A stretch of DNA of 23,267 nucleotides from positions 1 to 23,267 of the IMG/VR virus record IMGVR_UViG_3300048929_000125; one strand, given 5' to 3'. Shown here piece by piece: positions 4,167 to 19,858 of the stretch. Below the pieces are notes generated by a model that saw only the letters and a list, made by a program, of their open reading frames with translations, made no database searches and was not told the DNA's origin. A program made the translations under genes and the position numbers. The DNA is from a virus. How positions within the stretch are numbered: position 1 is the stretch's first letter; every line of letters begins with the position of its first letter.

Positions 4167-4804
4167 TTCGTCCCCTCCGTTCTGCTACCGCCGCGTTCTA
4201 CTCCGCCGTGGTCGTGGTCATCCACCTGCACGCCGTTCGAGGTCAGTTTCCCGCCGCTGTGCTCGATATTTCCTTTCATCGTCCCGCCCTTCTGCACTTC
4301 GAGTGAGCCGGTGATGAGCTTGTTAGTGCACACCACTTCTGGGGTATCGAGCGTGATGCGGGTTTCAGCTTTGACCAGCACCACCGGCACAGTGGCGGTA
4401 AGGGATTCCGACGCGGTGACGTCGGCGGTTTTGATACCGGACACGGTGAGCGCCCCGCTGTCGGGTTCGTACTCGATAACCGCCCCGTCGGGAAAGGCAA
4501 TGTGAAGCGCATCAGGCGAGGCAGACGGCGCGGGATTGTCATCAGAGAAAATGGAGGGCAGCACAAACGCGGTGTCGAGTTCGCCACCGATGGCAAGAAT
4601 CAGCACCTGCTCGCCAACGGAAGGAGCCCACCACACACGCGAGCGACCGGCGCGGGAGGTCAGCCAGTTAAGCCAGGTGGTTTGCATCCCGCCGGTCTGG
4701 ACGCGACAGAGCCCAGCATCGTGATCGACGTCGGTCACGATGCCGGTACGGATAAGGTTGCGCATAGCGCGAGCGATATCCTGAAGTGAATTTAATGTGT
4801 TCAT
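4163..4804 (-). CDS. V: Tail spike / baseplate hub protein V
   Basis: A protein of 213 aa (P2 gpV about 211 aa). Residues 15-90 form the OB-fold part shared with T4 gp5 (VQTGGMQTTWLNWLT). Residues 100-190 are the repeat-rich beta-helix. The C-terminal tip has DDHDHGG with H197 and H199, the H-x-H motif that binds iron at the membrane-piercing apex of P2-type spikes. The gene is first in the tail operon. No strong Shine-Dalgarno sequence is seen before the ATG at 4804 (upstream bases read ATTCTACCTCC), which is odd for an abundant late gene. Directly upstream begins the AT-rich foreign island. Confidence 0.94.
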   Translation of the reverse strand: MNTLNSLQDIARAMRNLIRTGIVTDVDHDAGLCRVQTGGMQTTWLNWLTSRAGRSRVWWAPSVGEQVLILAIGGELDTAFVLPSIFSDDNPAPSASPDALHIAFPDGAVIEYEPDSGALTVSGIKTADVTASESLTATVPVVLVKAETRITLDTPEVVCTNKLITGSLEVQKGGTMKGNIEHSGGKLTSNGVQVDDHDHGGVERGGSRTEGTK

Positions 4805-4847
4805 GGAGGTAGAATGCCGCCTGGTATGGTCAACGACAATTAAATGC

Positions 4848-4871
4848 AGTTTGAAGAGGCATGAAACAACA
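4848..4871 (-). promoter_or_regulatory. Candidate late activator site upstream of V (PV), uncertain
   Basis: On the minus strand a perfect left half-site TGTTGT is followed after 12 bases by CAAACT, which matches the ACAACA half poorly (3 of 6). A site centred here would start transcription near 4804, on the V start codon itself, so the spacing does not fit well. A second isolated ACAACA occurs at 4915-4910, which would place the start near 4866. One of these is probably PV, but I cannot decide which. Confidence 0.3.
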
Positions 4872-5109
4872 CACTGATACTGTGCGAGATCAAAAAACTG
4901 TCGTTCCCTTGTTGTTCAACCTCTTACTTTTAAATAATTGAGATATTGAAAGTCATACAAGTGAACTATTTCATTGCAATCAGGAAATATTTAAAAAAAA
5001 TAAAACCAATTAACTCATGCTATAAGTTAAAAAATTTCCGATTGAACCATGAAGGAAACCAGGCAATAATAATAGCGTAGGTAAACCAAAAACAAAGCAA
5101 TGATATATT

Positions 5110-5143
5110 AGCGGACGGTGATGTCGCCTACTCCGCTCTTTTC
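5110..5143 (+). terminator. Hairpin followed by a short T tract
   Basis: On the plus strand AGCGGA (5110-5115) pairs with TCCGCT (5132-5137), with an inner GGTG/CGCC stem and ATGT loop, followed by CTTTTC. This has the shape of a Rho-independent terminator for plus-strand transcription, but I see no plus-strand gene before it. Read on the minus strand, the same bases follow an ATG and a 5-codon frame. It may be a structured part of an unknown RNA. Confidence 0.4.
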
Positions 5144-5225
5144 ATTAAATTAAACCCAGCCCTCCAGAATAATTATTACAATAATAAATGCTTGAAAGTT
5201 AGAAAAATATGATCATGAAATTAAA

Positions 5226-5332
5226 ATCGTGGTGCCGGGTGCCTCCCGGTGCTTCTTTGCCAGACCAAAGAAGCGCGAGCATATCGCAAAGGTGTCTGGT
5301 TCGACCCGCCGCATAGGGGGATTCACCACACC
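5226..5332 (-). ncRNA. Structured small RNA, possibly C4 / P4 CI-type antisense RNA
   Basis: The minus strand reads GGUGUGGUGAAUCCCCCUAU from the predicted start at about 5332. Stems seen: GUGGUG (5329-5324) with CACCAC (5234-5229) closes the whole molecule; CCGGG with CCCGG (5249-5235) forms a 5-bp hairpin; GCUUCUUUG with CAAAGAAGC (5274-5251) forms a perfect 9-bp hairpin. The 6-base loop of the last hairpin (GUCUGG) is exactly complementary to upstream CCAGAC (5299-5294), so a pseudoknot or a switch between two folds is possible. The C-rich AUCCCCCUAU near the 5' end is the kind of segment that pairs with ribosome binding sites. The pattern reminds me of the C4/CI phage antisense RNAs, but that family assignment is from memory. 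The 3' end is uncertain. Confidence 0.55.
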
Positions 5333-5336
5333 TAGA

Positions 5337-5365
5337 AAAATAGAAAACAGTCTCACGTGAGTCAA
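5337..5365 (-). promoter_or_regulatory. Strong sigma-70 promoter with palindromic operator for the 5226-5332 RNA
   Basis: On the minus strand TTGACT (5365-5360), a 17-bp spacer, and TATTTT (5342-5337) make a close match to the sigma-70 consensus. The 10-bp perfect palindrome CTCACGTGAG (5352-5361) sits in the spacer and touches the -35 box, as an operator would. The start is predicted near 5332-5330. Confidence 0.6.
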
Positions 5366-5528
5366 GTTTTTTTAGCAGACATGTGTTTTTTCATGATCCC
5401 ATGATCACAATAAAGAAATTTTGTGTCAGCTATGCTTATACCAAACGAAAAAGCATGCTTTTGTCACACCAGCTTAGTTTATATTTCCAACATTAATTGA
5501 CAATCATTATCTGACCTGCATGAAAACG

Positions 5529-5560
5529 CAAAAAAAAGTCCATCAATAAATTGACAGACT
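5529..5560 (-). terminator. Rho-independent terminator of the 5530-5609 RNA
   Basis: On the minus strand AGTCTGTCAAT, loop TT, ATTGATGGACT pair over 11 positions (two as G-U), followed by seven more T residues. This is a textbook intrinsic terminator facing left. Confidence 0.75.
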
Positions 5561-5609
5561 TCTGAAATATCAGAAAAGGTGCTTACCAACCATTTACTTC
5601 AGATGAAGT
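5530..5609 (-). ncRNA. Compact small RNA candidate with its own promoter and terminator
   Basis: A predicted minus-strand RNA of about 80 nt with three stem-loops in a row: AUUUACUUC/GAAGUAAAU (9 bp, 4-base loop, 5613-5592), UUCUGA/UCAGAA (5575-5560), and a terminator hairpin with a U tract (5560-5530). No open frame of useful length is present. The layout (promoter, 5' hairpin, short single-stranded part GGUUGGUAAGCACC, U-tailed terminator) is that of a trans-acting bacterial sRNA of the Hfq-binding kind. The 5' hairpin lies partly at the predicted start, so it could be an operator instead. Target and function are unknown. Confidence 0.55.
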
Positions 5610-5615
5610 AAATTT

Positions 5616-5645
5616 AGCATAGCACCACTTATGAGAAACGTACAA
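5616..5645 (-). promoter_or_regulatory. Promoter of the 5530-5609 RNA
   Basis: On the minus strand TTGTAC (5645-5640), an 18-bp spacer, and TATGCT (5621-5616) preceded by TG (extended -10). The 22-base inverted repeat 5592-5613 begins just after the -10 box, so it may also be a regulator binding site. Confidence 0.5.
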
Positions 5646-5932
5646 GTTTTTAGTATTCATTACCTATAGAACCAATAGAATGCTTACCATGCGTCTATGA
5701 TAAAACACATGGAACCACTCAGTAAGGACCTGCTTAACCACACAAAACTGCTTCAACTCTATTTAAATCAATAAACTCCAGCTTAAAATAGAGAATATAT
5801 GAATACGTTCTCCATAACTCACTTCAGTTTTCTTAGAATCAACTGTTCAATGAGAAACTTTTCTTGCATATCGAACACGAGTAACTTGCGTTCTGGGTAT
5901 TGCACATTTACTGCCACCAAACCTTGAATAGC

Positions 5933-5966
5933 CAATCGAAAAATAGTTAAAGATATTTTTCAATTG
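5933..5966. repeat. 13-bp inverted repeat
   Basis: CAATCGAAAAATA (5933-5945) and TATTTTTCAATTG (5954-5966) are inverted copies with one mismatch and an 8-base loop. It lies about 140 bases past the end of the acyltransferase gene. It has no T tract and is not a clear terminator; a protein-binding site or weak transcript end is possible. Confidence 0.4.
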
Positions 5967-6101
5967 CCGTATTTAAAACGAACCACCACTATTAAATGCC
6001 ACATTCCACATTTTGCTGACAGTAGCATTTTTCAATCTTCATTCTGTTTACCTATCGCATAATTCGAGATTCGACACTCATCCAACTAAATATATACTCT
6101 A

Positions 6102-6893
6102 CTAACGGATAATTCCACGTGTTGAGTGCTGGAAAAACCATTCGAATAGTTCGCCAACAGGATGCTTATTTAACCTCTCTTTTAACATAACCTTCGCTTC
6201 ATGTAACGATAGTGATTTATTGTAAAGTATATCGTAACAACCTTTTGTTAAGCTCTGATCGCTCTGACCCGACCCGGTGAAATATCTGGATGTGGTGTCT
6301 ATTCCATTGGGTTCAGCATAGTTACCGCTAGCATAAACAAATGGGGGAATATCCTGAGTTACACCTGAGTGATGCCCAACATTTGCATATGCACCTAATA
6401 CACAGAATTGATGGATTGCGCACATGAACCCGACCACAGCACCATCACCCAGTGCAACATGTCCTGCCAGGCCGCTGTTATCACCAATGTGCGTACTATT
6501 ACCAATGATGCAGTCATGCCCAATGTGAACGTTATTCAGGAGGGTATTATCGTCACCTATTATAGTGTAATTATTATCTTGCGCCGTGCCTCGATGGATT
6601 GTTGCATTGTTACCAATATTGTTACGACTCCCTATAATTAGCCTGGTTGACTCATTTTTATATTTTAGATCTTGATTCACTTCACCTATCGATGAAAACT
6701 GCCCAATCTGATTATCACACCCGATAACTGTAAATCCATTAATAACTGAATGGGACCCTATAATAGTTCCCTCACCAATAACAACATCCGCAGAAATAAT
6801 ACAAAATGGACCGATATTGACATGTGCCTCGATCACTGCGCCTGGTGCTATGATACTGCTACTCGAAACGCGTGCAGTAGAAGAGATCGTCAT
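6102..6893 (-). CDS. LpxA-like UDP-N-acetylglucosamine O-acyltransferase (moron gene)
   Basis: A protein of 263 aa, one longer than E. coli LpxA and alignable along its whole length (IGPFC, SIGEVNQDLKY, TIHRGT, HDC, IHQFC, final STRGIIR). Residues 1-190 are the hexapeptide-repeat left-handed beta-helix; the rest is the helical C-terminal domain. LpxA transfers a hydroxyacyl chain from acyl carrier protein to UDP-GlcNAc, the first step of lipid A synthesis. The catalytic base (H126, LpxA H125) and H123, H145, H161, K77, Q74 and D75 are kept. The acyl-chain ruler G173 is replaced by His174, H191 by Tyr192, and the GLKRRGF segment with R204/R205 is missing. A shorter acyl chain or a different sugar substrate is therefore likely. 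AGGA lies 8 bases before the ATG. The gene is AT-rich, stands alone and is oriented with the late genes; I infer a role in changing the lysogen's surface. Confidence 0.85.
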   Translation of the reverse strand: MTISSTARVSSSSIIAPGAVIEAHVNIGPFCIISADVVIGEGTIIGSHSVINGFTVIGCDNQIGQFSSIGEVNQDLKYKNESTRLIIGSRNNIGNNATIHRGTAQDNNYTIIGDDNTLLNNVHIGHDCIIGNSTHIGDNSGLAGHVALGDGAVVGFMCAIHQFCVLGAYANVGHHSGVTQDIPPFVYASGNYAEPNGIDTTSRYFTGSGQSDQSLTKGCYDILYNKSLSLHEAKVMLKERLNKHPVGELFEWFFQHSTRGIIR

Positions 6894-7113
6894 TTATATT
6901 TCCTGATAGCTAGAATGCTTATCGTCCAAAAAACGTTACGTTGGCTATCGTTCTGGAACAGCCACAAGGTAACGCTAACACTTTTATCAAGCTACAGAAT
7001 ACTCGTAATATCGTTACGTAGCGAATGTCTTGGCAGGAACAGTTTCTGCTATAACCTGGCTATTCAAGCGCTTTAAATACTATCATAATGAAATGCAAAA
7101 TTCCCATCCGAAA

Positions 7114-7578
7114 TTATTCAAAGGCTGAACTATCCCCAAGGTAATCAACTATCAGCTCCTCAATATATTTTTTATCAGCACGACTAAATCCCAGCAACTC
7201 ACGCTGTGGATACTGAACATCCTGACTATTAGGGGTTGGCCTGTCTTTAAGTCCGTACTGATGGATCTGCACGATACGTTGCACCTTACCGGTAAACTGC
7301 ACCACAGCAGTATCATTGCGGCCACGGGCTTTCATGTAGCGGCTGGTTCGCAGCTTCTGAAACATCGCCCTTTTAATACGCCCTTTTTTTGCCCTGATCG
7401 GCTGACGCTTTCGCGCCTGATACGGCGTGCCATCCGGGGCTTTTTGCAGTTTAATCCGTTGCTGTTGCGATTTTCGCAGCTCTTTCGCAATCGCAGCAGC
7501 AAGCTTTCGCCGCCCCGCCGGTGACAGCGCCCCAATCAGCCCGGCGAGCTTATCGTCAAAAGGCTTAAACTCATTCAT
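7114..7578 (-). CDS. S: Tail completion protein S
   Basis: A protein of 154 aa (P2 gpS about 150 aa) of the phage virion morphogenesis / tail completion family. It is basic in the first 90 residues (KELRKSQQQRIKLQK, QPIRAKKGRIKRAMF) and ends with the family's QYGLKDRP and YPQRELLGFS motifs. With R it finishes the tail before head joining. Its start overlaps the end of R by 8 bases. It is the last gene of the O-to-S operon; 7113 to 6894, between it and the acyltransferase gene, holds no gene and no promoter I can defend. The C-terminal residues (DSSAFE) lie next to the AT-rich island and may have been changed by its insertion. Confidence 0.93.
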   Translation of the reverse strand: MNEFKPFDDKLAGLIGALSPAGRRKLAAAIAKELRKSQQQRIKLQKAPDGTPYQARKRQPIRAKKGRIKRAMFQKLRTSRYMKARGRNDTAVVQFTGKVQRIVQIHQYGLKDRPTPNSQDVQYPQRELLGFSRADKKYIEELIVDYLGDSSAFE

Positions 7579-17569: not shown

Positions 17570-19858
17570 TTACCATTCCTCAGACATTGAAAACCCCGGC
17601 CACAAATCAGTAGCCGCATACTTAAATTTTTTATCGCCATAAATCACCGTTGCCCCACGCGCCAGCGCGTCGAGCTCCCACCGTTCCGGGGTAATCCCTT
17701 CCTGTGCTAAATCGAAACGAATTTTTGCCACGCGATCCCTTTCGGCTCGGGTCATCCTGGCTGATGGCGCTTGCTCGCTCGTTTTGAGCGGAGCCGCATT
17801 TCTTTGCTGACGATTTTTGCGGGGCGCGCCCTCTTTTGACGCCGCTCTGAGTACCCTCATCACGTCGGGCTCATCCCACCCGATGACGCCCTTATCAATC
17901 AGATTTAACACCGCTGCGGCTTGCTCAGACGGTGTGGGTGTCATAACTGGATCACCACCGGCGGTGAGCTTTCCACAGTTATTGACAGGACTCCGAGGCG
18001 CGGCAGAGCCGCTTTTCAAAGTCAAAGGCTCAACGGCCAAAACCTTTGGAACGATGCGCCAGTCTGCGGATCGCGTTATACGGATATGACCCGCGCCGAG
18101 GTGAGGGGCATAAATGCCAACCACTCTCTCGATATCTTCCTCGTATTCGTTGACCTCATCCGTCACCTTACGGGCGACCCTGACGGTCTGGCCGTCACGC
18201 GGCATGTTTGCCCCACCCTGCGCGATGATATACAGGTCAAAATCGCCTTTATCTGCAGCCGCTCGCGCAGCCTCGACTCTGTCGTCAAACTCGCTGGCGA
18301 TACTCACGCCGCGAGGCAGCTTGCGCAGTTCGCGGTAAGCGCCCATTGTCGGGAGGCCAATTGGTTTAAACTGCGGGATGCGCCATGTAGACGCCCATGC
18401 GGTGACGGCTGCGGCTGTATCTTTCAGAGGCTTGCCGGTGTCGTGGTCGAGCTGGCCGTCGAGCGCGTAACCGTCGATATTTTTGGCAATGTATTTAGCG
18501 ATATAACCCGCCGCGCCGCCCTGATTAAGATGGCGTGATTCAAAGCGCTGTTTTGCCGCACCCTTTTCGTGGCCGTCCTCTTTTAGCGCGTAACGACGCA
18601 TAATTTCGTTAATGGCTTTACGCTGACCGGGTTTGCAAAACAGCATCATGTGCCAGTGTGGCGTGCCGTCGTGGTGCGGCTCGACAACGCGCATCCCGTA
18701 AACATCTAAATCGTTATCTTTGAAGGCGGTGCGTATCAGGCTCCAGATACGGCAGAGATAGCGCTGGCCGTCTTTGGGAGTGAATGCGGTTTCGTTCCAG
18801 CCGTGATTAAGCTGTACCGTTTTGTTTTTGCCTTTGCCGACCTGTCGGGTCGGGTGATACTTCGACGGCGTGGTCAGCGTGATAAACATTCCAACGTCAC
18901 CAACGCTGGCCGCGTAGCGCTCAATCCCGGCGATAGTGTTCATCAGCTCCATACGACGGATTTCAGGGTTTGAGATACTCCCCATGACCTTGCTGATGAG
19001 GTCGATACGTTCGCCGGTGATTTTGTTTTCCAGCTCGCATGATTTGAGGTATTCAAGATTAGCCAGGCGGCGCGCGTGAACATCGCGGATCGCCCTTTTG
19101 CTTGCGTAAGGTGAGCGGTCTTTATTGACCTCACCGGCAGCGATGAGCAGCGCCTCGCACCAGCGCATACGTTGCGCTTTGAGCTGGTCAACCCACCACT
19201 CATCCTTAATCAGACGGGAAATAGCGGAAAACGCCTGTCGGATCGTCATCTGACCCTTACGGTATTTTTTCCAGTTCATCGGTGTGAGGTTGAAAGCGCG
19301 CGCAACACCGGCAACTTTCCCGTATAAATGCGCCTGCGCCTCATCGGTGAAAAGAGTCTCTCTTCCGCCGTGCGCGTGAGCCCATGCGTCGCTTAACTCC
19401 TCGTATCTGCTCCAGAGCTGAGAGGCTATTCTGGCCGCAAATTTCCTTAGCTCTTTGTCGTTCATATCCGGCAGGCGTGCATATTCATCACGCGCAGACA
19501 AAAACCCAATCGAGGCGGATTCATTCATCCCGCACAGCTCATTAACACGCTCAAGACGCGGCAGCAGCTTGCGCTCAAAAGTGTTTTTGAGGAAATAGAG
19601 GCCACCAAGAGGGCTTTTGGATCGGCGGATGAAGTTATAACGCGAGGTAAAAAGCGTTTGCAGGAAAAACGGCAGGCGGTCAATCCGGTTTAAAACGCCT
19701 TGCACCTGACGGAGTTCGGCACGTGTAAGGGGTCTGTCGCGGCCAATGGCCTTGCGGGATTTATTCCACGGATAAGCACCGACGATGGTATCACCGGTGC
19801 TTTTTGATAGTGGAGGTGGTGGCGAGGGGGCGACGCGCCCCCGATTCTCAGCGGTCAT
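17570..19858 (-). CDS. A: Replication initiation endonuclease A
   Basis: A protein of 762 aa (P2 gpA 761 aa), HUH superfamily rolling-circle initiator. The metal-binding HUH motif is HWH at 401-403 (GTPHWHMMLF). The two catalytic tyrosines are Y452 and Y456 in YIAKY, matching P2 Y450 and Y454. The first 300 residues and the C terminus follow P2 closely. It nicks its own gene at ori, stays on the 5' end and starts one-strand replication with the Rep helicase. The start overlaps the end of the preceding small gene by 11 bases. The N terminus (MTAENRGRVAPSPPPPLS) differs from P2. Confidence 0.96.
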   Translation of the reverse strand: MTAENRGRVAPSPPPPLSKSTGDTIVGAYPWNKSRKAIGRDRPLTRAELRQVQGVLNRIDRLPFFLQTLFTSRYNFIRRSKSPLGGLYFLKNTFERKLLPRLERVNELCGMNESASIGFLSARDEYARLPDMNDKELRKFAARIASQLWSRYEELSDAWAHAHGGRETLFTDEAQAHLYGKVAGVARAFNLTPMNWKKYRKGQMTIRQAFSAISRLIKDEWWVDQLKAQRMRWCEALLIAAGEVNKDRSPYASKRAIRDVHARRLANLEYLKSCELENKITGERIDLISKVMGSISNPEIRRMELMNTIAGIERYAASVGDVGMFITLTTPSKYHPTRQVGKGKNKTVQLNHGWNETAFTPKDGQRYLCRIWSLIRTAFKDNDLDVYGMRVVEPHHDGTPHWHMMLFCKPGQRKAINEIMRRYALKEDGHEKGAAKQRFESRHLNQGGAAGYIAKYIAKNIDGYALDGQLDHDTGKPLKDTAAAVTAWASTWRIPQFKPIGLPTMGAYRELRKLPRGVSIASEFDDRVEAARAAADKGDFDLYIIAQGGANMPRDGQTVRVARKVTDEVNEYEEDIERVVGIYAPHLGAGHIRITRSADWRIVPKVLAVEPLTLKSGSAAPRSPVNNCGKLTAGGDPVMTPTPSEQAAAVLNLIDKGVIGWDEPDVMRVLRAASKEGAPRKNRQQRNAAPLKTSEQAPSARMTRAERDRVAKIRFDLAQEGITPERWELDALARGATVIYGDKKFKYAATDLWPGFSMSEEW
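17973..18003 (-). other. ori: P2-type replication origin (gpA nick site) inside A
   Basis: The minus strand contains CGCCTCGGAGTCCTGTCAAT followed by AACTGTGG, the conserved segment around the gpA cut site of P2, which lies inside gene A. The cut is expected between CTCGG and AGTCC. The match is from memory of the P2 origin. Confidence 0.75.

Follow-up and report, generated by a model that had tools for sequence, protein, structure and literature searches.

What kind of RNA is encoded between the tail genes S and V of a P2-like phage, and on what does it act? The window examined here, the whole 23,267-nt stretch of IMG/VR record IMGVR_UViG_3300048929_000125, comes from a P2-like phage in which Phage_tail_S, Phage_base_V, GPA and integrase were found; among named records it is closest to Enterobacter phage ENT4, with 85.6% identity across the head and lysis genes. 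The original prediction had placed a structured small RNA, driven by a promoter of its own, in the moron region of this phage, and it likened that RNA to the antisense C4 and CI RNAs of phages P1 and P4. Such an RNA does lie there behind its promoter, both at the coordinates first given, and it proves to be a member of another family.

Scanning of the whole window with cmscan gave a single above-threshold match, to STnc100 (RF02076), at 5180-5359 on the minus strand over model positions 1-206 (55.1 bits, E 1.6e-9, against a gathering score of 47 bits). A permissive-filter scan over 4800-7200 again returned STnc100 as the sole match. The helices of the family (closing stem, 5', central and 3' hairpins; P1, P2, P4 and P5 below) are formed and conserved, the match covers the full model and includes the invariant motifs, and the copy occupies an intergenic prophage location in a phage of Gammaproteobacteria, as family members do. 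The minus-strand RNA at about 5332-5226 almost certainly belongs to STnc100. Members of this family are present in many copies per genome, with at least 11 annotated copies having RNA-seq reads in EHEC EDL933 and a Northern blot for one of them (PMC5331693). STnc100 also ranks among the most abundant annotated bacterial sRNA families in a 2022 survey that gives no function for it (PMC9029176). Members elsewhere lie between Q and the lysis genes, adjoin cor (cor-tail fibre) or stand near tRNAs in phage P1. The window copy differs in its setting, the late region of a P2-like phage instead of the interval between Q and the lysis genes, and in lacking the usual downstream intrinsic terminator. A blastn search of phages with 271 bases around the RNA found no match at E<=1e-5, and the RNA core alone gave phage matches at E<=10. 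Bacterial-genome matches were all from Enterobacterales among the matches listed, and a subgroup-specific pattern had no match in genome contigs.

Table 1. Features of the RNA locus and the neighbouring gene, in window coordinates.
Feature	Position	Strand	Evidence
STnc100-family small RNA, structured core	5226..5332	-	RF02076 match; fold z -2.5
P1 closing stem, 5' strand, pairs with 5228-5234	5324..5330	-	flank extension covaries
P1 closing stem, 3' strand	5228..5234	-	alignment covariation
P2 hairpin, 5' strand CCCCC, pairs with 5305-5310	5316..5320	-	compensated in relatives
P2 loop UAUGC	5311-5315	-	
P2 hairpin, 3' strand, one bulged base at 5308	5305..5310	-	alignment
Pseudoknot strand CCAGAC, pairs with P4 loop	5294..5299	-	swap test and alignment
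Variable linker with weak mini-hairpin GCGA/TCGC	5275..5293	-	differs even among P2-like orthologues
P4 hairpin, 5' strand GCUUCUUUG	5266..5274	-	double changes at 8/9 pairs
P4 loop GUCUGG, every base paired with 5294-5299 (pseudoknot)	5260..5265	-	
P4 hairpin, 3' strand CAAAGAAGC	5251..5259	-	alignment
P5 hairpin CCGGG-AGGCA-CCCGG, near-invariant	5235..5249	-	
Sigma-70-like promoter, TTGACT (5365-5360), 17-nt spacer, TATTTT (5342-5337)	5337..5365	-	position conserved in relatives
10-bp palindrome CTCACGTGAG overlapping the -35 box	5352..5361	.	not conserved
lpxA-like gene	6102-6893	-	NCBIfam LpxA equivalog

The elements described for the folded 107-base segment, namely the closing stem, the hairpins and a 6-nt loop with its complement, are all present and each is conserved (Table 1). 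The segment has a minimum free energy (MFE) of -44.7 kcal/mol (z = -2.5), with 3 of 200 shuffles equally stable. MFE folding alone mis-draws helices P1 and P2 because it cannot show the pseudoknot. The core is arranged in the order P1, GAAU, a bulged P2 with a UNNGC loop, a short strand (5-8 nt long), the variable linker, P4, P5 and P1; the mini-hairpin in the linker is weak and only partly conserved.

Comparative support for this arrangement comes from viral contigs, which were scanned with a 3' motif and with a 5' motif and gave at least 120 matches each. Among the matches listed, 107 distinct cores were extracted, with 41 representatives below 85% identity. GGTGAAT lies upstream in 178 of the 200 listed segments that were retrieved by the 3' motif alone (chance 1.5%), and the 3' motif, with at most two mismatches, occurs in 40 of the 41 listed segments retrieved by the 5' motif alone. 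Judged from the retrieved segments, the conservation of the RNA ends is not merely a search artefact. Helix P1 continues into the flanking sequence, where its pairs covary (0 of 5000 permutations), and the CCCCC strand of P2 becomes CTTTC, CCATC or GCGGC in relatives with matching changes on the opposite side. Over the whole structure, the positions said to pair are paired in 99.1% of cells, as opposed to 39-47% when slid; double changes occur at 13 pairs, and the covariation score is 0.325 compared with 0.145 for shuffled and at most 0.068 for slid controls.

The pseudoknot itself was assessed by exchanging strands and loops among 40 divergent representatives in which P4 was found. Mean contiguous pairing was 6.83 bp for the real combinations and 5.00 (sd 0.18) for the swapped ones, and none of 20,000 permutations reached the real value. 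In 18 distinct aligned sequences, the window included, all 108 pseudoknot cells are standard pairs, with five pair types (UA, AU, UG, CG and GU) at one position and 11-44% of cells paired in slid controls; the first MAFFT alignment (A1) had the pseudoknot strand one base out of register in several rows, and an N spacer was placed in alignment A2 in rows one base shorter at that strand, so that A2 counts lean towards the chosen register, and the swap test is independent of A2. The nearest P2-like orthologues carry a compensatory change from CCAGAC/GUCUGG to CCAGUC/GACUGG. The 6-base loop and the upstream strand thus very probably form a conserved pseudoknot. It is absent from the STnc100 model structure displayed by cmscan, and covariance models cannot encode pseudoknots. 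Two or three STnc100 copies stand close together in several phages (L104, L031, L121, L017 and L171), and in several cases neighbouring copies within one phage have different pseudoknot sequences.

These pairings bear directly on the antisense reading, in which the C-rich 5' part served as an anti-Shine-Dalgarno sequence and the 6-base loop as an antisense element acting on incoming or resident phages. The anti-Shine-Dalgarno role was rejected, as the C-run is a strand of P2 that is replaced with compensation in relatives. The loop is indeed complementary to the upstream strand and conserved, but it is taken up by the internal pseudoknot. With the C-rich strand inside a covarying hairpin and the loop inside a pseudoknot, neither element is free for a target. 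Identity with C4 or P4 CI was likewise rejected. The C4 model (RF01695) gave no match even at E<=1, and in the same scan it found phage P4's own RNA at 74.9 bits as a positive control. C4 itself has a 17-bp closing stem with two hairpins, and the window RNA resembles it superficially as a prophage RNA with a stable closing stem around internal hairpins; unlike C4, the window RNA is without free antisense loops and has a pseudoknot and the CACCGGGAGGCACCCGGCACC motif. Nor was an unpaired loop or strand found that would match a gene leader of this phage. The proposed antisense decamer ATAGGGGGAT occurs in the window at its own site only, and no run of at least 11 nt complementary to the RNA is present elsewhere in the window. 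In phage P4 the decamer has one single-mismatch match where 0.41 is expected, a chance-level result that gives no indication of action on other phages. When RNA duplex energies for about 28 gene leaders in the window were compared with those for shuffles of the RNA, the holin leader (p 0.02) and gene N (p 0.08) were the only ones below 0.1 among the matches listed, no more than expected from about 28 tests, in agreement with the earlier remark that no obvious target adjoins the RNA. An antisense immunity RNA of the C4/P4-CI type is, in view of these results, extremely unlikely at this locus.

The promoter had been described as near-consensus, and it is present with a position that is conserved. 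Among the matches listed, TTGAC precedes the RNA core by 37-38 nt in 10 of 41 divergent homologues, and its spacing is conserved in all P2-like relatives whose upstream DNA is covered. The bare match is not above chance, as the region holds 12 promoter-like sites against 9.3 +/- 2.7 in shuffles. The palindrome taken for an operator is real as well; it is found only in near-identical copies, and related P2-like loci have CTCCCATGAA (L271) or CTGGTGTAAT or similar (L181/L269) in its stead, so the operator reading is unsupported. On the 3' side, no clear intrinsic terminator follows the window copy, and intrinsic-terminator-like sequence lies within tens of bases of many homologues. A transcript of its own from this promoter is predicted with good confidence. 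The RNA would be transcribed alone from its sigma-70 promoter, which would allow expression in the lysogen. The predicted start lies at about the first base of helix P1, near 5331, and would leave the 5' end buried.

Related phages differ in what surrounds the RNA. In the window it lies about 425 nt upstream of V on the same strand, and it is present in about 10 of 80 gene V relatives, among the matches listed and the stretches covered. In one of these (L271) nothing but the RNA stands between S and V. In two others (L181, 2904-4274; L277, 5142-6512) a MASE4-GGDEF diguanylate cyclase gene lies directly downstream of it, in another (L275) this gene is cut by the locus end, and only a shorter GGDEF-containing ORF follows it in L229, L272 and L276. 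The S-V gap of ENT4 (L398, PV844615.1 14500-18500) has no STnc100 RNA. That gap contains an opposite-strand ORF of 354 aa, the start of which looks PIN-like by eye. TGTN12ACA, the P2 late-activator site, has no match near V. Given the varied contents of the S-V gap among relatives, the gap is a moron site and the RNA an independent resident. Comparison of these gene neighbourhoods has thus shown that this P2-like phage of Enterobacterales carries the RNA at the S-V operon boundary as an accessory gene (moron) in its own right.

The other accessory gene nearby in the window is lpxA-like. In E. coli LpxA, Gly173 is the acyl-chain ruler. The phage protein, which is 50% identical to LpxA in a Salmonella Infantis record, has a His at the residue aligned with Gly173 and keeps the catalytic His of the HIAHD motif, which suggests lysogenic conversion of lipid A acyl-chain length. 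The same lpxA-like gene is found directly after the head genes of another P2-like contig (L175:6001-6792), with no STnc100 sRNA in the short stretch covered beyond it, and this arrangement indicates that the lpxA moron may also move independently of the sRNA. It is conceivable that the RNA regulates lipid A or envelope genes jointly with its neighbour, all the more as PasD, an sRNA discussed below, is near lpxR in most genomes (PMC13192938). In close relatives, however, the RNA is found with no lpxA beside it (L271) or next to a GGDEF gene (L181, L277), which marks it as an independent moron. A partnership with lpxA was rejected for this reason, and joint regulation of the envelope is very unlikely.

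More divergent homologues extend the structural plan beyond the Rfam family. A divergent STnc100-like element lies between dicF and dicB in the Qin prophage of E. coli K-12 (NC_000913.3 ~1649473-1649590; L266 ~19474-19591) and scores 34.4 bits to the STnc100 model (E 4.2e-6 over 301 bases). Phage P1 has one between tRNA genes and an SPFH-domain gene (L257:2406-2520; MH422554.1 ~63686-63800), and SfV has one downstream of the cI region. All three share the P1/P2/P5 plan, the bulged P2 and the AGGCA loop; they differ in that P2 is GCGGC-UNAGC-GCACGC and in falling below the Rfam gathering score. In the K-12 copy P5 reads CCTGG-AGGCA-CCAGG, and a near-identical element (L143) has the pseudoknot complementarity CAGTTAA/TTAACTG and a helix P1 longer by up to 17 pairs. 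Pseudoknot complementarity is also seen by eye in the phage P1 element, whose closing stem runs straight into a stretch of U residues, in the manner of an intrinsic terminator. Unlike the window RNA, the K-12 element is part of the dicBF transcript, in which it lies immediately 5' of dicB. The dicBF operon is processed by RNase III/E, and the text of the paper describing this does not contain the terms secondary structure, pseudoknot or stem-loop (PMC10448788). A broader proposal unites STnc100 with the dicF-dicB and phage P1 elements in a single superfamily of pseudoknotted phage RNAs. Its members would not be antisense RNAs but would serve a conserved host protein or ribonucleoprotein as folded ligands, and they would have been dispersed as stand-alone RNA morons among unrelated temperate phages (lambdoid, P2-like and P1-like); this proposal is speculative and, taken as a whole, rather unlikely.

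Taken together, the window RNA is probably best explained, with fair confidence, as an STnc100 moron that is pseudoknotted, expressed in lysogeny and active in trans as a scaffold. The class of mechanism, a trans-acting folded scaffold presenting invariant loops, is proposed tentatively, as it falls a little short of an even chance. It is suggested because the compensated helices and fixed loops are conserved and the linker, the sole long free stretch, is not. The RNA would offer GAAU, the UNNGC loop and the AGGCA loop to a conserved host partner, which may be a protein or a conserved RNA, and it would have no C4-type antisense action on a neighbouring phage gene. The strongest competing explanation is that the RNA, like PasD, depends on Hfq and acts by base pairing; the fold would then be a stability scaffold and the linker or 3' tail a seed choosing host or prophage mRNAs. 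Common ancestry of STnc100 and PasD has been reported in a 2026 preprint, according to which PasD1 and PasD2 of enteropathogenic E. coli are prophage-borne and structurally homologous to STnc100, although they give no BLAST alignment to it, lie near Q and lpxR and have known Hfq-dependent targets (PMC13192938). PasD is Hfq-dependent and has many partners, mRNAs among them (PMC13192938, PMC8550237), which points to base pairing and against a scaffold, and a linker that varies could direct each copy to different targets. The seed of an sRNA is usually its most conserved part, however, and the linker of this RNA varies even from one orthologous P2-like locus to another; nor does any cis target stand out among the leaders of the window. 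This base-pairing alternative is doubtful but deserves serious consideration.

A further possibility is that the element is not a free RNA at all but acts in cis, as a leader or processing element for the V operon downstream or, in Qin, for dicB. Its orientation and distance relative to V, the lack of a strong terminator after the window copy and the place of the K-12 homologue within the dicBF transcript, where a cis role is possible, would all be compatible with such a function. On the other hand, the RNA and V are separated by a variable distance, about 0.5 to 2.1 kb, in which other genes lie, many homologues are followed by terminator-like sequence, and the neighbours of the family differ from locus to locus (Q-lysis, cor-tail fibre, the cI region, tRNAs). 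A cis-acting leader is improbable on these grounds.

The covarying pseudoknot, the K-12 homologue beside dicB and the stand-alone P2 moron copy together provide a structural model for STnc100. The function of this family is thereby made testable, with simple mutants of a 6-bp pseudoknot and a copy in a laboratory strain. Ultimately, the model argues that the conserved loops, and not the C-rich strand, are the active parts of the RNA.
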